This document shows positions 9,285-20,700 of a stretch of 61,094 bases of DNA, piece by piece. Source of the stretch: Rhodospirillaceae bacterium. GTDB taxonomy: Bacteria; Pseudomonadota; Alphaproteobacteria; Bin65. Positions within the stretch are counted from its first letter, which is position 1. The number at the start of each line of letters is the position of its first letter. The stretch spans positions 1 through 61,094 of the forward strand of contig JAPOST010000101.1 in the NCBI GenBank assembly GCA_026709535.1, given 5' to 3'. Made by a program: the position numbers and the translations under genes. The notes beneath the pieces were generated by a model that was not told the DNA's origin, searched no databases, and was given only the letters and a program-made list of their open reading frames with translations.

Positions 9285-9359
9285 GGGCGCGTAGCTCAGC
9301 GGAAGAGCGCTGTCTTCACACGGCAGATGTCGCTGGTTCAATTCCAGCCGCGCCCACCA
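9285..9359 (+). tRNA. tRNA-Val (anticodon CAC)
   Basis: 75 nt including an encoded CCA end. The acceptor stem GGGCGCG pairs with CGCGCCC. The D arm is GCTC...GAGC. The anticodon stem CTGTC/GGCAG closes the loop TTCACAC, so the anticodon is CAC (reads GUG). The T arm is GCTGG-TTCAATT-CCAGC. It stands alone, flanked by about 296 bp of non-coding DNA on the left. Confidence 0.93.
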
Positions 9360-9522: not shown

Positions 9523-10716
9523 TCAACGTATTTCGCGAACCACAATCAGGGGGCCGTTCGGATGATCCGGATTCAACAGGATATTGTGGTTTATGTCATG
9601 AATCACGCGGGCCGCCCCGAACCACCCCATTCGATAGGTCTTTTCGTCAGGTGATTGAGTTTGGCAAATCTGAACTGCGCCGTTGGTCTGGTAACTTTCG
9701 GCAAGAGCTTCAGCCTCATTCCGATATTTTTCTGCGATATACGGTCCAACCGTATGATTCGTTCCGGATCTGTCATCATATCGGCATGCGCCGAATCCTG
9801 ATCGCATGATGTCGGAAAACGCCGGCAACAAACTGGCTTCAACATTGGCAACCAGTCCGCCAAAGCCGGGGCGCGCTCCATGACAAAGGCAGCGGGTCAT
9901 CAAGTCTTCGACGGTCGCATCCAGGTCGTCGGCATCCTCAAGATCGACCGTCCGGATATTCCTGAAGTGGGTATGCAGGGGAATGCCGTTTCGCTTCGGC
10001 GCAAGTGACACCATCGCTGCGGCGGCTCGGCTTCCATGGAAGTCCAGTCGCTTCAGGCCAGTTTGGCGTGTGAGGGCCATCCCGGCATCTGTCCCCGTTC
10101 CCTGGACGAGATTGAAGACGCCGCCCGCCGCGCCGGCCTGATCCAGCGCATCCGCAAAAAATACAGGTGACAGGGGGGCCTTGATCGACGGACGCACGAT
10201 GACCGTGTCGCCGGCAGCCATATCCTGACAGAGCGTTTCAACGCAAGTCTGTAGCGGATTACTCCACGACAGGATTTGCCCAATCACACCATTCACACAA
10301 GCGTTGGGGCCTGATTCGGTCGCCAACCGCAGCCGGGCGGCATTTATGGAAGCGAGCGTGTCATCACGTGCAAATGGTAGAGGTAGCCCAGTATCACGCG
10401 AAACGACTATCGCAACCTCATCAATCCGGTTCGCCAAATCTTCCAGTGCCGTGTCGACGATGTGAGCCCGATCCGCGCTGGAATACTCATTCCAGATCGG
10501 AAGTGCGCGCACCGCAGCTGCCTCCGCTTCGGCAATATCGCGATGCGTTGACAGGGGGACGGTGGCAATGACAGTGCTGTCGGCAGGATCGTAAATGTCG
10601 AAACCATAGCCTTCCCGGGTGAATTTCCATACCCCGCCGATATAGTTGCGTTCGCAGAGCTCACGCCATGAATGCGAATTGCCCGTGACCTCAGCTATCG
10701 TCAATGGTGACAGCAT
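9523..10716 (-). CDS. Aldehyde-dehydrogenase-superfamily protein lacking the catalytic Cys and Glu
   Basis: A 397-residue protein that follows the ALDH fold. It has an N-terminal NAD-domain stretch (YDPADSTVIATVPLS...), ILSWSNPLQTCVET in place of the PWNFP motif, AAGDTVIVRPS, GGVFNLVQGTGTDAGMAL and LDFHGSRAAAAMV. At the two key sites the family residues are absent. The ELGG motif carrying the general-base Glu is replaced by HTHFRN. The GQ.C motif carrying the nucleophile is replaced by GARPGFGG. The length is also ~80 short of a normal ALDH. It begins inside the last codons of the broken isoF (26-bp overlap), so it is the last gene of the iso operon. It may be a non-catalytic partner or a decaying gene. 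Without those residues it should not oxidise aldehydes by the usual mechanism. Confidence 0.65.
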   Translation of the reverse strand: MLSPLTIAEVTGNSHSWRELCERNYIGGVWKFTREGYGFDIYDPADSTVIATVPLSTHRDIAEAEAAAVRALPIWNEYSSADRAHIVDTALEDLANRIDEVAIVVSRDTGLPLPFARDDTLASINAARLRLATESGPNACVNGVIGQILSWSNPLQTCVETLCQDMAAGDTVIVRPSIKAPLSPVFFADALDQAGAAGGVFNLVQGTGTDAGMALTRQTGLKRLDFHGSRAAAAMVSLAPKRNGIPLHTHFRNIRTVDLEDADDLDATVEDLMTRCLCHGARPGFGGLVANVEASLLPAFSDIMRSGFGACRYDDRSGTNHTVGPYIAEKYRNEAEALAESYQTNGAVQICQTQSPDEKTYRMGWFGAARVIHDINHNILLNPDHPNGPLIVVREIR

Positions 10717-11081
10717 CTAAATCGAATCGGTCATGGCAGACTCGGTATCCAAGAATCAGATCGACGCACACAGCCCGAGAGATGACATCTTTCATCCTTG
10801 GGCCAGCGAGGTACATTTCTTTTCCGAAGAGACTCTGTTCCCTCGCCATCACAACATCGCCGACAAGACATTGAGCGAATGGCAGCCTCCGCTGCATTCC
10901 AGCCAGTCGCGCAGGGCGACATGGATGTTAATGGTGCCAGATGACTTGGCGATTTCGGTCAACTCATTGATGCAAAACAACTCCACCAGAGTATCGGCGC
11001 CAAAGTACAGATCGATTGGCCTGCTGCACAGGTGAACGATGTCTCGTCATGGAGCGTGACGCTGAATGTCCTGGGGAACCG
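10691..11081 (-). pseudogene. isoF: IsoF-type monooxygenase reductase, internally deleted and frameshifted
   Basis: This lies exactly where isoF follows isoE. The N-terminal strand of a [2Fe-2S] ferredoxin domain is readable (TFSVTLHDE, then TSFTCAAGQSI). At about 11012-11020 the sequence jumps to the C-terminal NAD-binding part (PIDLYFGADTLVELF, then GTINIHVALRDW). A further frame change near 10885 leads to the closing segment FGKEMYLAGP, then MKDVISRAV and CHDRFD. About 200 residues are missing, including the CxxxxCxxC iron-sulfur loop, the FAD-binding RxYS region and most of the NAD domain. No start codon is left in frame. A functional reductase cannot be made from this locus. Confidence 0.72.
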
Positions 11082-11108
11082 AACTGGTAGCTGCCTCGGA
11101 GATGCGGC

Positions 11109-12131
11109 TCAGGCATTGCCGCTTAAGCCGGCCTGCCACTTCAACTCGACCCATTTCGCGAGGACATCTTCGGCGATCGTCTGTGCCTCCAAGGCATCGA
11201 CATGCTCCGCAATCATCGCCGCGCCGGATTGAACGATTGTTTCTGCAAGGTCGTTCCACCCGCCGGCAAGGTTACGCAAGGTCTCGCGATGCGCGGGATC
11301 TTCATCAATGATGAAAGTGGTGGCGGAAACCGTCCACCGGTTATGGCGTTCGCAATCCACATAGAGATTCTCGAACACCAATGCATCGAGTTCATCTCCG
11401 GCGAGGCGCGCCGCACGGGATAGTTGATTGACGAAAAGGTTGTCACAAACCGGTCTAATCACGAGGTTGAAAGCGACAAGTGCCTCGTCCCACTTGTAGG
11501 CAATCATGAGCTTCTCGACTGCTTCTCGAACCCCTTGCCAACCTGGCGCATTTTCCCAGGTTTCCCGCTCACTGCTTCCAAATCCATGGGTCGGATGCTC
11601 AGTATCCAGCTGCCTGGTCCGGTATGCGACTCGCTGGACTCGTCGGAGCTGGTCGGCCACCTGGAAACCGGCGCAGTTGCCGATATAGGACGATGGTGCC
11701 AGCTGGTGAATGTAGGCTGACAGCATCTGCTGAACATGCGCCAAATACCGGCTGGGCGTCATCACGCTACGCAGCAGATTGAGACAGTTGTCTGAAAGCT
11801 GACTGTCGATGCTGTCCTCAGCCGTATAGGATGCGAGCAGGTTATCAACGTAGGCTTCCTGTTCGTCCTGCATCTTGACGTAACCATCGTAGGTCAGCCG
11901 GTCCGGATCGCGGAAGGCGTCCCAGTTGGAGATCTTGATCGAGATCTCGTCACGATACCGTTTAAGCCAAACGTTGCCGTGAACATTCGGCCCCATTTCC
12001 AGCGGTGTCTCGCCGGTCGTGTGGTTCATGTTGTGGGTCACGATTTCGTAGTCGTTCGGCTTGCCGGTCAATTCACCGAAAGCGCTCCACGTCTTTTTGC
12101 GAGTGCGCCGGCGCGCAGCTGTCTCTGTCAT
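11109..12131 (-). CDS. isoE: Isoprene monooxygenase, hydroxylase beta subunit
   Basis: A 340-residue protein of the non-catalytic beta subunit family of soluble diiron monooxygenases (TmoE/TouE/IsoE). It has the N-terminal KKTWSAFGELTGKPNDYEIVT, then GPNVHGNVWLKRYRDEISIKISNWDAFRDPDRLTYDGYV, the typical signature in front of the helical bundle. It packs with IsoA and IsoB to form the (alpha-beta-gamma)2 hydroxylase. The second of two adjacent ATGs (12131) is chosen because GGGAGG sits at proper spacing. It is followed immediately by the isoF wreck. Confidence 0.87.
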   Translation of the reverse strand: MTETAARRRTRKKTWSAFGELTGKPNDYEIVTHNMNHTTGETPLEMGPNVHGNVWLKRYRDEISIKISNWDAFRDPDRLTYDGYVKMQDEQEAYVDNLLASYTAEDSIDSQLSDNCLNLLRSVMTPSRYLAHVQQMLSAYIHQLAPSSYIGNCAGFQVADQLRRVQRVAYRTRQLDTEHPTHGFGSSERETWENAPGWQGVREAVEKLMIAYKWDEALVAFNLVIRPVCDNLFVNQLSRAARLAGDELDALVFENLYVDCERHNRWTVSATTFIIDEDPAHRETLRNLAGGWNDLAETIVQSGAAMIAEHVDALEAQTIAEDVLAKWVELKWQAGLSGNA

Positions 12132-12163
12132 CATTTCCTCCCGCATTGGCGTGTTGTTCGGGG

Positions 12164-12469
12164 TCAGGTGGCGTAGTACCAGCGCATCTGCTCTGTGGTG
12201 GACTGCATTCGGCCCTTGAAGGACGGCATCTCGGCTTCGATCATCGCAAGATCAAAGTTTCGACCGAGATGCTTCTCCATTGATGCCTTCGTCAGAATAC
12301 AATCGTGGTCAGTATGGATGCGGACGTAGTCGCCGCGTTCGATCACGAAGACTTCACGCTCCGGATTGTCATCGATAACCGCATCAATAACGGCCTCCGC
12401 CAAGGCACCTGTTCGGATCACCGGGCCTACCAGGTTTTCATCCATTTCAGTGTGGTCTTCGGAGTTCAT
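12164..12469 (-). CDS. isoD: Isoprene monooxygenase coupling/effector protein
   Basis: A 101-residue protein of the MmoB/DmpM/TmoD family. It reads NLVGPVIRTGALAEAVIDAV...NPEREVFVIERGDYVRIHTD, followed by LTKASMEKHLGRNFDLAMIEAEMPSFKG, which is the conserved core. It contains no cofactor; family members bind the hydroxylase and gate oxygen and substrate at the diiron site. ATG 12469 is preferred because homologues start a few residues before the VGPV motif and an AAGGAAC lies upstream. Longer in-frame starts would overlap isoC. Confidence 0.87.
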   Translation of the reverse strand: MNSEDHTEMDENLVGPVIRTGALAEAVIDAVIDDNPEREVFVIERGDYVRIHTDHDCILTKASMEKHLGRNFDLAMIEAEMPSFKGRMQSTTEQMRWYYAT

Positions 12470-12491
12470 GGTCCCTTGTTCCTTCATCGCT

Positions 12492-12848
12492 CTATTCCGG
12501 CTCGGTCCCGACATAGACACGGCCATTTTCGACCTTCACCGGAAAAGCCTGCAGGCACTCGTTCGCAGGATTGACGCCCTTGCCGTTGTCGGCCCGAAAC
12601 TGCCATTGATGGGCGCCGCAGATAATCAGGCCGTCTTCTGTCAATTCTCCATCTACGAGGGCGACACTCTGATGCGGACACAGGCCGTCATAGGCGAAGT
12701 ACTGTTGTCCAAAATGAACGAGCAGGATCTCATGGTCGCCGACGTCGAAGGCATCCATCTCACCGTCCCACAATTCATCTTCGGCACAGACTTCGACATA
12801 GTCGATATCCTTGGTCTTCTCCGTGGAGACGGCGGCTACTCCTTCCAT
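12492..12848 (-). CDS. isoC: Isoprene monooxygenase Rieske-type ferredoxin
   Basis: A 118-residue Rieske [2Fe-2S] protein. Ligands are visible as CPH (C57, H59) and CGAH (C77, H80), that is C-x-H-x17-C-x2-H, followed by QWQF. It carries electrons from the NADH reductase (IsoF) to the IsoA diiron centre. ATG 12848 starts 13 bp inside the end of isoB, so translation is coupled. Since isoF is broken here, this ferredoxin would need another reductase. Confidence 0.88.
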   Translation of the reverse strand: MEGVAAVSTEKTKDIDYVEVCAEDELWDGEMDAFDVGDHEILLVHFGQQYFAYDGLCPHQSVALVDGELTEDGLIICGAHQWQFRADNGKGVNPANECLQAFPVKVENGRVYVGTEPE

Positions 12849-13102
12849 CGGACTTCGAACCATTGGAGCGGCAGCACAGGCGTCTCCGCCATCAACTCCT
12901 CGAGGCGCTGATCGCCAGGCAAGATATCCCCGTTCAAAAGCACTTCATATCCGTCTGCCGCCGGATTCTCGGGCATCCGGCGGCCAACACTGTGCACAGC
13001 CACCTTTTCAGCGATCTGATCGAAAGTGTCTTCGGTGTCGACGGCCGCCAGATGGGGTACAAAGTCACCGGCAAAGCGGCCTATGATCGGAAAGAGAGCC
13101 AT
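12836..13102 (-). CDS. isoB: Isoprene monooxygenase, hydroxylase gamma subunit
   Basis: An 88-residue protein of the TmoB/IsoB ubiquitin-like gamma family, beginning MALFPIIGRFAGDFVPHL and continuing DTFDQIAEKVAVHSVGRR...LNGDILPGD. The initial strand-helix-strand and the length are typical. It is a structural part of the hydroxylase. It lies 49 bp after isoA. Confidence 0.85.
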   Translation of the reverse strand: MALFPIIGRFAGDFVPHLAAVDTEDTFDQIAEKVAVHSVGRRMPENPAADGYEVLLNGDILPGDQRLEELMAETPVLPLQWFEVRWKE

Positions 13103-13151
13103 AACCCTTGCTCCTCACTGGGTGTTCGCGATTGTCTTGCCGGTGCCGCTA

Positions 13152-14642
13152 TCATGCCGCCACTCGCATGTCCTTGTAGTCTTGAGCCCAAGCGTACCCG
13201 TAAGCGTCGTCGCCCATGACTTCAGGCGTGATGCTCATCCACTGCAATCCGCCTTCAAGATTCATGGGCTGGATCTGACCGGCGATGAAACGATCCACGA
13301 CGTTCATGTGTCCGGCATAGCGCTCTGGCTCCAGTTCGAAAATCCATTTCGAAACTTCACTGTCGAAGTGATAGACGCGGCCTTCATGAACAACCTGGTG
13401 GCATCCCAGATGGTGGCGGTCCAGAGCAGATCCGAGTGGCAGTTGAGTAATGTTGCAAAGTGCCGGCAGCGTCTCGGGATATGTTTTCTCCATCTTGCCG
13501 TCGTTGACGTTCTTGATGATTTCGTCCCAGAGAACACCCCAACTGTCATCCCAGCTCGGGTACTTTTCGTTCAGCCAGCGACGCTCTGCCTTCGACACGC
13601 CGGCGTTAGGTTTCCAGAACAAAGTCGGGCGCCAGAACCAGGTACCTATGTGCATGGCATGATGCCCATGCTCCAGCGCTTCCTCGAATTGCGACCAATA
13701 CCAAGGCTTCTTCAAGCCATAATCGCGAAGGATTCGCTCGTGGTGCTTGATGATCCACTCAAGCATGAACTCCTTGAATGACATTTTCCGTTTTTCGACC
13801 GGCGTGTAATAGTCCATCGATGTGCCGGTGAGTGTCTGGAACAGGCGGAAGGCTCGCCAAAAGGAAACGTCCAGAATCTGCTGTGCTCGCTTGGGGTCGT
13901 GCTTCATCACGACATCCAGGGTCGGAAAGCCGAGTTGCGCGTGGCGGGCTTCGTCCGTCTGGATGCTGGAAAGAAGACTGGAGAAATTGACATCGCCGGC
14001 TTCCATGGCGTCCGACGCCATCGCGACAAACTGAATGTTGGTGAAACCATGCTCTACGGTGAGCGAGGTTGCCAGTGCTGCCTCGACGCAATCGGCGTTC
14101 AGCATCACGTCGTCGAAGAAATTACGAACCGCCAAGACGCCCCATTCGTTGGTATGGAAAGCCTTCTGGCACCAATCGAAGCGAGGGTCCTCGTTCAGGA
14201 GATCGTGGCTGAAGCGCATATCGAGCTGCGCGTGCCGTATCTCATCAAGCATGCCGAACGCACCCAGGCTGCGCCAGCGGGCACAAGGCGCGAAGCGGGA
14301 GAAACGGGACTGCATCGTCACTGCCATCTGCTCGACCATGCAGGTCGTACCCATGTGAAGCTGTGTTGACGCCTTATGTCCGTCATCAAGTTGCTGATAG
14401 GCTTTCGCACGAACCATTGCTTCGCGAATGGCACTCACGCCGGCTTCCTTCTCACGCTGCACCATCACGTATTCTCGGTAGGAAACGCGGAACGGTTCGT
14501 CCCAGTCCTCCCAAGCTTCGAGCGGGATGCCTTTCGCACCGACCCATTCCTCCGGGAAGGCCTCATCGCGGTCGACGTATTTCAGCGTCCAGTCGACGTC
14601 GCGAGCTATGTCGTACCAATCGTCACGATTCAGTAAAGCCAT
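13152..14642 (-). CDS. isoA: Isoprene monooxygenase, hydroxylase alpha (catalytic) subunit
   Basis: A 496-residue soluble diiron monooxygenase alpha subunit. All six carboxylate/His iron ligands fall at the same numbers as in toluene-4-monooxygenase: E104, E134 and H137 (DEIRH), E197 and E231 and H234 (DEARH). The N-terminus MALLNRDDWYDIARDVDWTL and motifs such as KKPWYW and HAMHIGTWFWRPTLFW resemble isoprene/alkene monooxygenases more than aromatic ones. In isoprene degraders IsoA converts isoprene to 1,2-epoxy-2-methyl-3-butene using O2 and reducing equivalents. AAAGGA lies upstream of the ATG. The substrate is assigned by neighbours (GST, SDR, CoA-transferase); another small alkene is possible. 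Confidence 0.88.
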   Translation of the reverse strand: MALLNRDDWYDIARDVDWTLKYVDRDEAFPEEWVGAKGIPLEAWEDWDEPFRVSYREYVMVQREKEAGVSAIREAMVRAKAYQQLDDGHKASTQLHMGTTCMVEQMAVTMQSRFSRFAPCARWRSLGAFGMLDEIRHAQLDMRFSHDLLNEDPRFDWCQKAFHTNEWGVLAVRNFFDDVMLNADCVEAALATSLTVEHGFTNIQFVAMASDAMEAGDVNFSSLLSSIQTDEARHAQLGFPTLDVVMKHDPKRAQQILDVSFWRAFRLFQTLTGTSMDYYTPVEKRKMSFKEFMLEWIIKHHERILRDYGLKKPWYWSQFEEALEHGHHAMHIGTWFWRPTLFWKPNAGVSKAERRWLNEKYPSWDDSWGVLWDEIIKNVNDGKMEKTYPETLPALCNITQLPLGSALDRHHLGCHQVVHEGRVYHFDSEVSKWIFELEPERYAGHMNVVDRFIAGQIQPMNLEGGLQWMSITPEVMGDDAYGYAWAQDYKDMRVAA

Positions 14643-14737
14643 GATTTTATCCTTTCCTACGGGCGGAGCGGAAGGCGTGACCTCCCGGGTAAATATCTGG
14701 CGGAGCGCGTCTGCCGTACACCGCCTGAGTGAGTGAT

Positions 14738-15451
14738 CTAGATATCGAAGCGCTGTTTGACCCGATCCAGATAGCTGGCCAAGTTCGCTTTTCCTGCCGC
14801 ATAGTCCTTCGTATCGAAGTTGAACGGCGTATCGATGATGTGGCGCAGGATCGATGAAACGGCGGCATCAATGGACCGAGGCTCTTCACCCATCACAAAG
14901 CCATTCCCGCCGATTCGGGCATCAAGGGCATCAATGTCCTCCCGCGCTCTCTGGTAAATCACGTCGCCAGACATGCGACCCCATCCGCCATGCATGAATT
15001 CAGTCACGATGCGATGCCGGAAATCATCGGCGAATGTCTGGAGCGGCGGCGGCACATCGTCGGTGCCGGCAATGATGCGAAGGTAAATTTCCCAGTTGGG
15101 AGTCTCACGCCAACGCGGCTGAATGACGGCAGTCCAGTACAGGTGCTCGTCGATCAGCCGATTCCAGGCATGCATCTCCGCTTTTTCCTGGTCGGAGGCG
15201 TTAGAATCCAGCGGATCCCCATATTTTCCTTTGAGATACTTGATAATGGCGGTCGAGTCGGCAACGGTTTCATCGCCGTCATCGATCTTCGGCAGTTTGC
15301 CGAAAGGCGTCTCTTCGTCGAGCTTGGTCAGATCCTGGCCAACGATCTCATGCTCGATCCCCACCATTTTCATGTAGTTGATCACCTTGGTGACGTAGGG
15401 GGAAATGCACGGTACCGTCCAGGCTGGCAGGTATCGGTAAATCTTGATCAT
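14738..15451 (-). CDS. isoI: Glutathione transferase, IsoI-type
   Basis: A 237-residue GST. The N-terminal thioredoxin-like domain begins MIKIYRYLPAWTVPCISPYVTK and has FGKLPKIDDGDETVADSTAI (the cis-Pro and glutathione-contacting Glu/Asp-Ser region). The C-terminal helical domain contains WNRLIDEHLYWTAVIQPRW. This metaxin-like GST class includes IsoI, which conjugates glutathione to isoprene epoxide to give 1-hydroxy-2-glutathionyl-2-methyl-3-butene. It sits between isoH and isoA as in known iso clusters. A second GST (isoJ), usually adjacent, is absent here. Confidence 0.82.
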   Translation of the reverse strand: MIKIYRYLPAWTVPCISPYVTKVINYMKMVGIEHEIVGQDLTKLDEETPFGKLPKIDDGDETVADSTAIIKYLKGKYGDPLDSNASDQEKAEMHAWNRLIDEHLYWTAVIQPRWRETPNWEIYLRIIAGTDDVPPPLQTFADDFRHRIVTEFMHGGWGRMSGDVIYQRAREDIDALDARIGGNGFVMGEEPRSIDAAVSSILRHIIDTPFNFDTKDYAAGKANLASYLDRVKQRFDI

Positions 15452-15511
15452 GGTCGCTCCTCCGTTCTTGTCGTTGTGCTTGGCGAGTCATCGAATAACT
15501 GCTTCACGCGA

Positions 15512-16192
15512 TCACCACGCCAACTCCTCCCCGTTTGCGTGCCAGAACCGGCCGGACGTTTCGAGACTGAGTACATCCATGCGCTGGAGTAGCCCTTCGG
15601 CCGCTTCATCTGGCGTGATGTAATCGAAGTCTCCCGGGAAATCTTTCGTCAGATCTGTTGCAACCATACCTGGATGCAGGGCGGCAACGGCGATGCCACG
15701 CTTCGAAAGGTCGTGGTGGAGATTGAGAGTCACCATGTTCGCGCCTGCTTTCGAAACGCGATAGGCGTACATCTGGCCGGATCCGTTATCGGACAGAGAG
15801 CCGACTCGGCTCGTGATCACCCCGATCTTTGCATTTGGTGCCAAATGCGGCATGGCAGCTTCGACGGCGCGCAGGGGCCCGATTGTATTGATCTCGAACT
15901 GTCGACGGACATCACCGTAGTCGATCTTGCCCAACTCATCAAGGCCGAGGACGCCAGCGACATGAATGAGGACATCCATGGTTTCGCCCCTGGCGGCCAG
16001 TGCAGCAGCCATTCCGGCAATCGCACGATCAGAGGTCACATCAATATTCGGGACCACTTCGATCACTGTTCCTGAATAAGCATCGCCTGCACCCATACAG
16101 ACCGAGACGACTTTATCTCCCCGATCGGACAACTGACGGCAGATAGAGTAGCCGATACCGCGGTCCGCGCCGATGATCAGATAGGTTGCCAT
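15512..16192 (-). CDS. isoH: Short-chain dehydrogenase, IsoH-type
   Basis: A 226-residue SDR. The nucleotide-binding GADRGIG is at residues 8-14, the structural HVAG motif near 77-80, the catalytic Ser in VITSRVGS (about 128), and Tyr144/Lys148 in YRVSK. IsoH oxidises the glutathione conjugate of isoprene epoxide to the aldehyde and acid. Its start faces the divergent LysR gene, leaving a 182-bp shared promoter region. It is 60 bp upstream of isoI. Confidence 0.82.
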   Translation of the reverse strand: MATYLIIGADRGIGYSICRQLSDRGDKVVSVCMGAGDAYSGTVIEVVPNIDVTSDRAIAGMAAALAARGETMDVLIHVAGVLGLDELGKIDYGDVRRQFEINTIGPLRAVEAAMPHLAPNAKIGVITSRVGSLSDNGSGQMYAYRVSKAGANMVTLNLHHDLSKRGIAVAALHPGMVATDLTKDFPGDFDYITPDEAAEGLLQRMDVLSLETSGRFWHANGEELAW

Positions 16193-16353
16193 TCAGTTCG
16201 TTCTCAATTTGCCCCGATCTAGCAGGAAGCCTTGGATGATCACACGACACGATCCTGGTCGGATGGTTCAGGACAAGGCAGCGTCTTTGCACCCCGAATT
16301 CGACTTAGCCTATGCAGCTCGGGCAAGGGGGGCTATAGCAACTTCCCAAATGA

Positions 16354-16376
16354 ATTGTTCCGTAGGGTCGAACAAT
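16354..16376. promoter_or_regulatory. Inverted repeat overlapping the LysR start (candidate autoregulatory operator)
   Basis: ATTGTTC and GAACAAT form perfect 7-bp arms separated by 9 bp. The right arm overlaps the ATG of the LysR gene. This is the size and symmetry expected of a LysR-type operator, and the position would allow autorepression and control of the divergent isoH promoter. The half-site CGAACAAT recurs upstream of isoG (20493-20500) and at 22374-22381. Confidence 0.5.
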
Positions 16377-17283
16377 GGACTTGAGGCATCTCTATCGCAT
16401 CAGCGTCTTCCAGAAGGTCGCGGAAACCGGCAATTTCACGCGCGCCGCCCAGGCGCTCAACCTGAGCAAATCCGTTGTCAGCCAACATGTTAGCGACCTT
16501 GAACGCGATCTCAATGTCCGCCTGCTCAATCGATCGACCCGATCGGTCTCGATCACCCAGGAAGGACATTCACTCGCCGACGCTGCGGAACAGATGATCG
16601 ACATCATCGGCACGGCCATCGAGCGATTGGAAAACGAGCAGCATCTTCCATCAGGGATGATCAGGATAACGGCGTCGCAGAATCTTGCGATCGTCTATCT
16701 GGCTGGTGCCATTGCACGTTTTCGAGAGGCGCACCCGACTGTCGAGGTCGAGCTCGACACGCAAGACAGCATCACGAATCTGATCGAAAGCGGATATGAC
16801 ATCGCCTTTCGTATCGGCTGGCTGAAAATAACCGAGCTTCATGCCGTCAAGATTGCCGACTTCGAGATGGTCCCGTGCGCCTCTCCGGCGTTCGTGAGAA
16901 AGTTCGGACCGTTCGACTCACCCATGGACCTGTCACGAAAACCCTGGATTGTCCTGACCATCATGTCGGATTATGACCGGTTGACGCTCAGCAGGAACGA
17001 TCAGGACAACATGAGCGTCAAACTTTATCCGTCGATCCGAACAAACTCCGGGATGACGGCGAAGCAATTCGTTCTTAACGGAGCCGGCGCCGCACTTCTT
17101 CCGGATTACGCGGTGTCTGCAGAGATCGAAGAAGGTAACCTTGTTCGGCTCCTGCCGGGTTGGCATCATCGACCAGGCGAAATAGCGGCAACATTCGTCC
17201 ATCGACGCCGCATGCCGCTGCGTCTTCGCGCCTTTATTGATTTCCTCAAGGAAGATGCAAGGACCACGTTCAACAAGCACTGA
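16375..17283 (+). CDS. LysR-family transcriptional regulator within the iso cluster
   Basis: A 302-residue LTTR. The N-terminal winged HTH is FQKVAETGNFTRAAQALNLSKSVVSQHVSDLE (residues ~12-43), followed by LNRSTRSVSITQEG. Residues ~90-295 form the effector-binding domain (IRITASQNLAIVYLAGAIARF, DIAFRIG). It is divergent from isoH and convergent with the ALDH gene, which places it inside the iso cluster. Control of the cluster by an epoxide or glutathione-conjugate signal is an inference; the sequence shows only position and the palindromes. Confidence 0.88.
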   Translation: MDLRHLYRISVFQKVAETGNFTRAAQALNLSKSVVSQHVSDLERDLNVRLLNRSTRSVSITQEGHSLADAAEQMIDIIGTAIERLENEQHLPSGMIRITASQNLAIVYLAGAIARFREAHPTVEVELDTQDSITNLIESGYDIAFRIGWLKITELHAVKIADFEMVPCASPAFVRKFGPFDSPMDLSRKPWIVLTIMSDYDRLTLSRNDQDNMSVKLYPSIRTNSGMTAKQFVLNGAGAALLPDYAVSAEIEEGNLVRLLPGWHHRPGEIAATFVHRRRMPLRLRAFIDFLKEDARTTFNKH

Positions 17284-17292
17284 ACGCGCTGG

Positions 17293-18744
17293 TCAGTCTT
17301 TCTTGATATTCACCACGACGGTGTTCGTATATTCCGACAAGCCTTGAACGCCGCATTCGACGCCAAGACCGGACTGGCGGATGCCGCCATAAGGAATCTC
17401 CGGCCCCATCGACGGATGCTGATTGACGAAGACGTTTCCAGCCTGGAGTCTGACGGCGACCGCTGTTGCAGCGTCTATATTTCGCCCCCATACGGAGCCG
17501 GCCAGGCCGTAAAGTGTATCATTCGCCCGGGTGATGGCGTCCTGGAGATCGTGGTACTTCAAGAAAGCGAGAGCAGGCCCGAATTGCTCTTCCCGAACGA
17601 TCCGTGCCTCATCCGGCACATCCCTGAAGAGGGTAACCGGATGGTAGAAGCCAGGGCTTTGCGGCACATCACCCTTGAAAAATGCATTTGCGCCACGACT
17701 GATCGCATCTTCGACCAGTTCGGTGACGATGTCCAACTGCTGACGATTCTGGAGAGGTCCCAGTTCGACATCCGGTTCGTTCCACGGCCCCATCTTCACA
17801 TTGGCCGCTATCGCGGCCAGTCGGCTGCACAGTGCTTCGTAAAGTTCGGACGGAACGTATGCTCGCTTCATACAGGCGCATACTTGCCCGTTGTTTGCGA
17901 AACCTGCCCAAAACAGTTCTTCCGCCTGCGTATTGATGTCGAAATCGGGCATGATGATCGCAGCATCGTTGCCTCCCAGCTCAAGCGTCAGACGCTTCAA
18001 GGTTGGCGCCGCGTTCGCCATGATCGCCTTTCCGGTATCCACGGATCCCGTAAAGGCAATTTTGCCGATCCGATCATGCGCCGTCATCCAGCGCCCGAGG
18101 TCATCGCCTCCCGTCAACACATTGATGACCCCGGCCGGAAAGATGTTCTTGGCGATTTTCCCCAGCCGAAGGGCGGTGAGGGGCGTCGAAGGGGCAGGTT
18201 TGAGTATGAGGGTATTGCCCGTCAACAAGGCTGGGCCGATCTTCCACAAGGCGAGCAACGCAGGGTAGTTCCACGCAGTAATCGCACCGACTACGCCGAT
18301 CGGGCGCTTCTCGACCCGGACATACTGATTGTCGGTATCACGGAGCACCTCGGATTTCAGTTCCAGGTTCGCGAATCCGCGGACAAAGAAAAGTCCGCCA
18401 TTTGTTTCGCCGATGCCCTTGGCAAGCGGTTTGCCAGCTTCCTGAGCAACTAGGGCACCAATGTCGTCTGCTTCGGCAGCGACAGCATCGCAGAACTTGA
18501 GAACGAGCGCACGACGGTCGGACCACGGCATCGCGGCCCAGGCAGGGAATGCAGCTTCAGCCGCAGCGACAGCATCATCCAGGTCTTGTTGGCTCGCCTC
18601 TGGTGCCGAAGCAAAAGCTTGACCGGTTGCAGGGTCGAGAACATCGAAGCTGTTATTGATCTGCCTGAGCTTGCCACCGATCACCATGGCCAACCCGTCG
18701 TGCGCTCTCTGGCCGTTTTCCGGCACCGTTGTCTGGATATTCAT
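17293..18744 (-). CDS. NAD(P)-dependent aldehyde dehydrogenase of the iso cluster
   Basis: A complete 483-residue ALDH. It has AWNYP (substrate/NAD domain junction), KPAPSTPLTA, FTGSVDTGKA, ELGGNDAAI with the general-base Glu, and NNGQVCACMKR with the catalytic Cys. An ALDH (aldH1) is a regular companion of iso genes, where it is thought to oxidise the glutathionylated butenal. ATG 18744 is chosen because AAGGGAG precedes it at good distance; a longer upstream start lacks family similarity. It is transcribed toward LysR, with 9 bp between the convergent stops. Confidence 0.9.
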   Translation of the reverse strand: MNIQTTVPENGQRAHDGLAMVIGGKLRQINNSFDVLDPATGQAFASAPEASQQDLDDAVAAAEAAFPAWAAMPWSDRRALVLKFCDAVAAEADDIGALVAQEAGKPLAKGIGETNGGLFFVRGFANLELKSEVLRDTDNQYVRVEKRPIGVVGAITAWNYPALLALWKIGPALLTGNTLILKPAPSTPLTALRLGKIAKNIFPAGVINVLTGGDDLGRWMTAHDRIGKIAFTGSVDTGKAIMANAAPTLKRLTLELGGNDAAIIMPDFDINTQAEELFWAGFANNGQVCACMKRAYVPSELYEALCSRLAAIAANVKMGPWNEPDVELGPLQNRQQLDIVTELVEDAISRGANAFFKGDVPQSPGFYHPVTLFRDVPDEARIVREEQFGPALAFLKYHDLQDAITRANDTLYGLAGSVWGRNIDAATAVAVRLQAGNVFVNQHPSMGPEIPYGGIRQSGLGVECGVQGLSEYTNTVVVNIKKD

Positions 18745-19168
18745 GTTACTCCCTTCTTGCGCCGGTTGAGCCACGAGATCAGGCCAAACAACGCTTTTTG
18801 GCATTACCTACAGCGCATAATCCTTATCCGACGTCTTTACCTTTGTTTTCGCCGACAGCAGGTTTTACCTTTGCCCTCTGCGTCCCGAGGTGCAAGGCCC
18901 CTATCTGCAATACACCAGCTGGCCTAGCGCGGCAGATGATCACCGGAATTTCCCGGACGGCGATATCGTCAGACATTCTTGATCGTGCTGCTCGCAACTG
19001 GAAACATCGACCCAACGAATGAAGGAGGGCCGTCTCCACTCATCAAGAGCGATCAGCAGCTTCCGACCGTTGAGCGATCGATAGTGATCAATCACGCCGA
19101 TTCGCCGGCCAAACCCGGACCGGGAACCACAACCGGGCAAACCTTGTCCGATGAATGCCGTCGACATG
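18745..19168. other. Intergenic region between isoG and the ALDH gene
   Basis: 424 bp without a recognisable gene. Short frames exist on both strands but show no family features. It may hold a separate promoter for the ALDH gene. No copy of the CGAACAAT half-site was found. Confidence 0.35.
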
Positions 19169-20398
19169 TTACTCGGCGGCCACCGAAACGGCGTTCAAGG
19201 TGATGTCCTGCTCGCCGCCAATGACACCCTGTGCATGCAGTTCCCGAATACGGTCTTCCGCAAGGCCGACTTCCAGTAGGATGTCGGCGCAGTGCTCGCC
19301 AAGCTGCGGCGCGCCCGACCGGTTTGTCGCGGGCGATCCCTCGAACCGCGCGGCATTGCGCGTTTGTCGTATGCGGCCGGCAGTGGGATGATCGCTTTCG
19401 AAAAGTATCTCGCTCGCGACAACCTGGGGGTGATCGGCTACGTCCCGGCGTGACAGAGCCGGGGAACAGGGAACGCCGCATTTCTCCAAGATGTCCATCC
19501 ACTCGTCAGTCGTTCGCTCACGCAACACCTCCTGGGTCATTTCCAGGCGCTCGTTGACATGAGCATCGCGGGCCGCCGGACTCGCAAAGCGCTCGTCTTC
19601 CAGCCACTCCTTGCGATCCAGTGCTTCGCAAAGGCCACGCCATTCCCTGTCTGACATCACGGCGACGGTCATGAAACCGTCCTTTGTTCGGTAAATCAGA
19701 TCAATGAAACTGGCAGCAGCCTGATTGGAAACCTCTGCCTGAGGGTAGGTCTGTGCGCCAAAGTCGGAAGCCCAGAGGAAAGAGAGGATCGCATCCAGCA
19801 TGGACAGCCGGACGTGCTGCCCCTCGCCCGTGCGTTCGCGCCGGAACAACGCCGCTCCCATAGCTTGCGCTGCCGCCATCGCCGAAAACTTGTCGGGCAG
19901 GACAGTGCGCACCAGGCGTGGACGTTCTTCGTCCGAGCCGGCCTGGATTGTCGTGAGACCGGAAATTGCCTGGATGACAGGATCATAGACCGGTTTGTGG
20001 ACCCAAGGCCCCTTTTCACCAAAGCCCGAAAGCGACAAATAGACAATATCCGGTTTGACTGTTTTGACGTCCTCGAAGCCGACTCCAAGCCGCTCCACCA
20101 CGCCGGGACGAAAGTTCTGGATGAAAACATCAGCCGTTTTTGCGATCTCCAGAAGCAAATCACGGCCTTCCGGCTTCTTGAGATCAATGGTGATGGAGCG
20201 CTTGTTTCGATTGATGTTGAGAAACATCGACGACATGCCGCCGCGGCGATTGCCGAGCGAGCGAACGTGATCGCCTTTTCCGGGCACTTCCACCTTGATG
20301 ACATCCGCGCCCTGATCACCAAGTATTGTCGTCGCCCATGGTCCCGAAAGCATCGTGGTTATGTCGACGACCCGAACGCCTTCAAAGGGTCCACTCAT
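19169..20398 (-). CDS. isoG: Class III (CaiB/BaiF) CoA-transferase, IsoG-type
   Basis: A 409-residue class III CoA-transferase. It has MSGPFEGVRVVDITTMLSGPW at the N-terminus, ADVIKVE, the nucleotide-binding NRNKRSITIDLK, FIQNFRPG, and SMLDAILSFLW, a segment that usually contains the catalytic Asp. IsoG is expected to load or move CoA on the glutathionyl-methylbutenoate so that it can enter beta-oxidation; this has been proposed in isoprene degraders. ATG 20398 is preferred over the preceding TTG because GGAG lies 8 bp upstream. First gene of the iso set in transcription order. Confidence 0.85.
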   Translation of the reverse strand: MSGPFEGVRVVDITTMLSGPWATTILGDQGADVIKVEVPGKGDHVRSLGNRRGGMSSMFLNINRNKRSITIDLKKPEGRDLLLEIAKTADVFIQNFRPGVVERLGVGFEDVKTVKPDIVYLSLSGFGEKGPWVHKPVYDPVIQAISGLTTIQAGSDEERPRLVRTVLPDKFSAMAAAQAMGAALFRRERTGEGQHVRLSMLDAILSFLWASDFGAQTYPQAEVSNQAAASFIDLIYRTKDGFMTVAVMSDREWRGLCEALDRKEWLEDERFASPAARDAHVNERLEMTQEVLRERTTDEWMDILEKCGVPCSPALSRRDVADHPQVVASEILFESDHPTAGRIRQTRNAARFEGSPATNRSGAPQLGEHCADILLEVGLAEDRIRELHAQGVIGGEQDITLNAVSVAAE

Positions 20399-20700
20399 CA
20401 AGATAACTCCCGCCGAAATTCAATTGGATGAAGTTAGGCCGTTTTGCGGCGCCAGGATACGGTGGTTTCCCGAACCGATTGTGCGCCCATTTCGAACAAT
20501 CGACATATTCGAACTCCAGCGACGGACTCCGAAGGCGCAAACTCCCATTCAGTTCGTCTGCTTGGGAACCGCCTTTGCACACGGCGACAACAGCTTTGGC
20601 AGCCACAACGCAAACAACATGTCCTACAATATTGGCTGGCGCCGTATCGCCACCTTCGAGAAAAGCTCAACCGAGATGCCGCCAAACCACGCGCAGCATC
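20399..20700. promoter_or_regulatory. isoG upstream region
   Basis: 302 bp between the outer-membrane gene stop and isoG. No gene is supported. It contains the TTCGAA palindrome and probably the isoG promoter. Confidence 0.4.
20491..20513. promoter_or_regulatory. TTCGAA-N11-TTCGAA palindrome upstream of isoG
   Basis: Two TTCGAA hexamers are separated by 11 bp, about 93 bp before the isoG start codon. TTCGAA is self-complementary, so the pair forms a symmetric site of LysR size. The left copy is embedded in CGAACAAT, the half-site also seen at the LysR gene. A role as activator site is inferred. Confidence 0.45.

Follow-up and report, generated by a model that had tools for sequence, protein, structure and literature searches.

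A decayed isoF beside otherwise intact isoprene monooxygenase genes suggests electron supply by a reductase encoded elsewhere

The isoprene cluster and its broken isoF

The window (the whole stretch of 61,094 nucleotides that was analysed, from a Rhodospirillaceae bacterium) carries an isoprene-degradation cluster on the minus strand of positions 9523-20401, in which genes for a CoA-transferase and an aldehyde dehydrogenase are followed, past a divergent LysR gene, by isoH, isoI, isoA, isoB, isoC, isoD, isoE, a broken isoF and ald. The closest relative of this cluster is L031, from Rhodospirillales bacterium RHO3_bin_58 (genome G061; IsoA 88%). The features are as follows.

19169..20401, minus strand: isoG-like family III CoA-transferase (Pfam CoA_transf_3; 82% to L031)
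17293..18804, minus strand: aldH-type aldehyde dehydrogenase (catalytic-cysteine motif NNGQVC present)
16375..17283, plus strand: divergent LysR-type regulator (Pfam; present in L031 too)
15512..16192, minus strand: isoH, 1-hydroxy-2-glutathionyl-2-methyl-3-butene dehydrogenase (NCBIfam NF049951 equivalog, 352.4 bits, cut-off 350)
14738..15451, minus strand: isoI, isoprene-epoxide glutathione S-transferase (NCBIfam NF049950 equivalog, 339.5 bits, cut-off 300)
13152..14642, minus strand: isoA, oxygenase alpha subunit (diiron ligands E104, E134, H137, E197, E231 and H234 all kept)
12836..13102, minus strand: isoB, oxygenase gamma subunit (Pfam TmoB, 2e-24)
12492..12863, minus strand: isoC, Rieske ferredoxin (Pfam Rieske; CPH..CGAH motif intact)
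12164..12526, minus strand: isoD, effector protein (Pfam MmoB_DmpM, 3e-23)
11109..12146, minus strand: isoE, oxygenase beta subunit, 345 aa (Pfam Phenol_Hydrox, 1e-63; open; 72% to L031 IsoE)
10724..11116, minus strand: isoF remnant (start codon at 11116; ferredoxin piece 11066-11010; NAD-domain piece 11019-~10910; C-terminal piece 10867-10724)
9523..10716, minus strand: ald, aldehyde-dehydrogenase-like gene without the catalytic cysteine, conserved after isoF

The four glutamate and two histidine ligands of the alpha subunit, the A-B-C-D-E gene order and the accompanying isoI and isoH are those of a group 2 soluble diiron monooxygenase, and the one element of that class missing from the operon is a dedicated NADH reductase, IsoF. 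As judged from its sequence, the enzyme is classed as an IsoF-less variant rather than as a complete IsoMO, with a predicted activity of converting isoprene to epoxyisoprene. The same gene order, diiron and Rieske ligands are found in the IsoABCDEF and isoGHIJ systems of Rhodococcus AD45, Variovorax WS11 and Gordonia OPL2, with which the window also shares the IsoI and IsoH equivalogs, the CoA-transferase and the aldehyde dehydrogenase; it differs from them in its isoF pseudogene and in the single glutathione S-transferase found in its cluster. All 11 of the surveyed clusters of confirmed degraders contain isoA-F (PMC12917321). The XamoABCDEF system of Xanthobacter autotrophicus Py2 (pXAUT01), whose alpha subunit is 78% identical to the window's IsoA, has the same order with ald after F, but combines an intact XamoF with a coenzyme M epoxide pathway, where the window combines a glutathione pathway with no F.

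The remnant lies between isoE and ald (window 11116-10724, minus strand), and the isoE stop is overlapped by the surviving isoF start codon at 11116 (ATGCCTGA), an arrangement that is also found in the related cluster L032 and in Py2. When XamoF (Xaut_4862 of Py2) was aligned to the locus by tblastn, only three collinear pieces in differing frames were recovered, corresponding to residues 26-44 (window 11066-11010, the N-terminal ferredoxin piece), 255-~291 (11019-~10910, the NAD-domain piece) and 304-353 (10867-10724, the C-terminal piece), with a joint E of 2e-12 for the latter two against a 6-kb target. The reading frame that begins at the isoF start runs for 50 codons before a stop. About 30 isoF codons are kept after the start and ahead of a deletion of approximately 210 codons, which removed the whole CxxGxCGxC loop of the [2Fe-2S] cluster, the FAD site and GGSGLAP. 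Reading of the sequence further reveals a frame shift of ~17 bp after codon 11, a loss of ~12 codons accompanied by a frame change, an in-frame loss of two codons, and the loss of the normal stop. The isoF of the window is a pseudogene broken by several lesions. The first-pass annotation of this DNA, which had described an isoF with a large deletion and a later frame change, was correct on all three counts; the span that it gave (10691-11081) lay at the right locus, fell slightly short on the 5' side and overran into ald.

The remnant is 43% identical to XamoF, 40% to the L032 IsoF and 31% to an IsoF encoded in trans in G061, the genome of L031. At conserved columns it keeps 28 of 51 residues, compared to 31 of 51 in that trans IsoF, a presumably functional protein, and dating of the loss from remnant substitutions was abandoned because such counts cannot tell decay from fast evolution. 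The earlier suggestion was of a pathway that had recently died, but a recent date was not established, given that several lesions are present and that the sister cluster likewise has no isoF. A sister relationship of the remnant and the G061 trans IsoF was not rejected (p-AU 0.135).

The adjoining ald has no catalytic cysteine in any cluster aligned (window 9523-10716; L011:19596-20759; L031:13669-14844; L032:7100-8206; L033, L036 and L037). Clusters of alkene-oxidising group 2 monooxygenases nevertheless keep the gene behind those of the enzyme, as has been remarked previously (PMC13188929), and the product appears to be a conserved aldehyde dehydrogenase without catalytic function; scanned with PADLOC, ald gave no match. 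Directly past the end of the cluster is a tRNA-Val gene (window 9285-9359), tRNA genes being common integration sites.

Selection on the remaining genes

Across isoABCDE, isoI and isoH (seven genes, 4.9 kb) there are no internal stops and no frame shifts, and the ligand residues of the monooxygenase are kept, which bears out the earlier statement that the rest of the enzyme is intact. Lineage-specific changes were counted for the window and L031 with L032 as the outgroup. For isoA through isoE, the window has 14, 4, 12, 11 and 27 private changes (68 in total), and L031 has 30, 13, 7, 10 and 16 (76 in total), such that no gene of the five is significantly faster in the window. The comparison of dN/dS proposed at the outset gave, for the window against L031, ~0.05 for isoA and 0.10-0.16 for isoB-E, values that are rough since dS is high. 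Neutral drift at 0.04 substitutions per site, simulated on the seven genes, produced stops in 200 of 200 runs, with approximately seven stops expected. IsoABCDE, isoI and isoH are thus under purifying selection, part of which may be older than the loss of isoF. The one gene that has changed faster in the window than in L031 is ald (42 changes versus 16; chi2 11.7). Third-position GC content is 0.59-0.69 in the cluster, close to the 0.69-0.74 of its surroundings and below the L031 genes (>0.8), and the iso genes have therefore probably resided for a long time in a genome of such composition.

The isoF position in related clusters

Among IsoA-type clusters on genome contigs, a sample that comprises few clusters and mostly metagenome bins, isoF is present in L032, L036, L037, L038, L041 and Py2. 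By sequence comparison, several other relatives have, like the window, lost, moved or swapped it. L031 shares the neighbours of the window cluster and also has no isoF in its operon (its isoE-ald gap is 143 bp and does not contain it); unlike the window, it has no C-terminal isoF remnant, and its genome encodes an IsoF-type reductase on a separate contig. In Rhizocola hellebori (L033), isoE is followed directly by ald, and in Parafrankia (L034) there is no reductase between isoE and the contig end 0.6 kb further on. A transposase-like start after isoE and before that contig end (Parafrankia EUN1f, L034:13683-14311) was recognised by eye. In Acetobacteraceae bog_899 (L035, IsoA 71%), IsoABCDE again lack an operon IsoF, but here, unlike in the window, the exact isoF slot is filled by a glutathione-reductase-type (GR-type) ferredoxin reductase (L035:5037-6263) that begins within the isoE stop (ATGGCTGA). 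Loss of isoF is recurrent, because the clusters without it occupy at least three positions on the IsoA tree: one shared by the window and L031, one of L035, and that of the actinobacterial clusters L033 and L034. A search across the class, covering 385 genomes, yielded no second close IsoA, a scan of viral contigs with IsoA yielded no relative, and open-access papers contained no account of reductase-less four-component clusters.

Candidate electron donors and rival explanations

Without IsoF, it is IsoC that would require another source of electrons; its nearest solved structures are T4moC and then the naphthalene dioxygenase ferredoxin, TodB and BphA3. The draft assembly to which the window belongs (203 contigs, 96.2% complete) was searched for an IsoF-like flavoprotein, as the first-pass annotation had proposed, and contains no FAD_binding_6 protein and no IsoF-like match better than E 0.005; one GR-type and one phthalate-type reductase were found instead. 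The former (C91; L029:7724-8950) is the sole Reductase_C protein of the assembly, and with its Pyr_redox_2 and Reductase_C domains and ~410 aa it corresponds to a GR-type oxygenase ferredoxin reductase, sharing both Pfam domains and length with TodA, BphA4, ArR and putidaredoxin reductase. GR-type reductases are the class that serves Rieske dioxygenase and P450 chains; C91 differs from the four named enzymes in that its gene stands alone in the genome with no oxygenase adjoining. Its scores place it nearer to ArR and putidaredoxin reductase, the reductases of P450 ferredoxins, with TodA and BphA4 further off. It is 35% identical to the L035 reductase. Its counterpart is single-copy in six of six congeners, so that the gene belongs to the core of the genus, and isoA is absent from all six; the branch of C91 is longer than those of the congeners' copies, and the whole genome may likewise be long-branched. 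The phthalate-type reductase (C139; L030:8662-9627), in which alone among the proteins of the assembly NAD_binding_1 and Fer2 are combined, is encoded divergently beside a LigXa-type Rieske oxygenase. These two are the best donor candidates in the genome, with C91 first in line. All six congeners encode a Fer2-FAD-NAD reductase (G005, L084:4940-8258; equivalents in G001-G004 and G006) for which the window's genome yielded no counterpart; in G005, the genome inspected for its surroundings, it adjoins a haem-oxygenase-like protein, an aldehyde dehydrogenase and a thiolase.

In the scheme that we favour, electrons would pass from NAD(P)H to a reductase encoded elsewhere in the genome, from that reductase to IsoC, and from IsoC to the diiron oxygenase IsoABE, assisted by the effector IsoD. 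The last of these steps, from ferredoxin to diiron oxygenase in the presence of an effector, are established for the family. The cis reductase could have become redundant because C91 is a core gene that congeners lacking iso genes carry as well, and isoF, once redundant, would then have decayed. That some reductase in trans, of IsoF type or not, serves the enzyme is probable; that the IsoF-less monooxygenase is still in use, with IsoC reduced in trans and the likeliest donor encoded by C91 in the assembly, we put at about even; and the specific identification of C91 as the donor is offered more tentatively. Precedents in relatives speak for the earlier suggestion that IsoC is fed by another reductase, and for the window itself we infer it. 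A GR-type donor has a precedent in the L035 reductase that occupies the isoF slot, and is supported by the homology of IsoC to the Rieske ferredoxins TodB and BphA3, which are reduced by the GR-type enzymes TodA and BphA4, respectively. Across six genomes, all four without any IsoF have a GR-type reductase and both without a GR-type reductase have an IsoF (exact p ~0.07, post hoc). In vitro, a foreign reductase, T4moF, can serve the IsoC of Rhodococcus AD45, and the Py2 enzyme has also been reconstituted with it; in cell lysate activity was not lowered when no reductase was added, although that lysate came from the native host strain (PMC9004368). The acceptance of T4moF is no proof for a GR-type donor, T4moF itself being of the IsoF class.

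Several other explanations must be weighed against this scheme. Electron supply could be ordinary and merely unlinked, as in the sister genome, if an IsoF-type reductase in trans were present but had escaped assembly or binning. G061 has followed that course: having lost isoF from its operon, it carries on another contig, beside an alpha/beta hydrolase, a single FAD_binding_6 protein that groups with XamoF and the L032 IsoF (starred branch), and a GR-type reductase was not found in it. The window assembly is, moreover, a draft, but its 96% completeness yielded no FAD_binding_6 protein or IsoF-like stretch elsewhere, and the remnant is no nearer to the G061 trans gene than to XamoF or the L032 IsoF; we consider this explanation unlikely, while giving it some weight. 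The phthalate-type C139, although alone in its domain combination, has in the neighbouring Rieske oxygenase an obvious partner, and phthalate-type reductases normally reduce their oxygenase directly, so that its feeding of IsoC is very improbable.

A pathway that in this lineage has already died, or is on the way to it, with isoF lost first and the remainder yet to decay, would account for the broken gene, for the dedicated reductase that is not seen and for the faster change of ald. It is nevertheless disfavoured, because the other iso genes are open, their ligands are kept and they show no acceleration relative to the nearest relative; neutral drift at 0.04 substitutions per site would have left approximately seven stops, isoF itself bears several separate lesions, and the sister cluster keeps its remaining genes without a cis isoF. 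The claim that the pathway had died is accordingly doubtful, albeit still deserving of a minor share of belief. Finally, the remnant is known from the assembled contig alone, and a full-length isoF collapsed in assembly would mimic it; that candidate was rejected on the strength of independent lesions in different frames, the ~43% residual identity, and the cleanly different isoF losses of the sister cluster and others, and its probability is close to nil. The reading that we retain is that the decayed isoF beside intact other parts suggests that electrons now come from a reductase encoded elsewhere.

It is conceivable, though somewhat short of an even prospect, that in four-component diiron monooxygenases the reductase is a freely exchangeable module that has been lost repeatedly, that a GR-type enzyme feeds the Rieske ferredoxin in lineages such as this one, and that the one IsoF-type reductase of G061 serves three diiron monooxygenases (that genome encodes two further Tmo-type enzymes, with no reductase following their beta-subunit genes). 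IsoF-type reductases resist purification, which limits work on the enzyme (PMC9004368). Natural clusters that lack IsoF, or bear a GR-type reductase in its place, point directly to substitutes that could be worked with and open the specificity of the reductase to testing. Their existence also means that possible degraders of isoprene will escape any survey in which a full isoA-F set is demanded.

Reductase-less Tmo-type operons may be common in the alphaproteobacterial relatives. In the stretches read, four-component operons without a reductase after the beta subunit were noted at L142-L145 (G061), L146, L147, L149, L152 and L154, and operons with one at L148, L150 and L153. Two of these loci (L147:1260-4583 and L152:8620-11920) have two tandem alpha-subunit genes ahead of a single C-D-E set.
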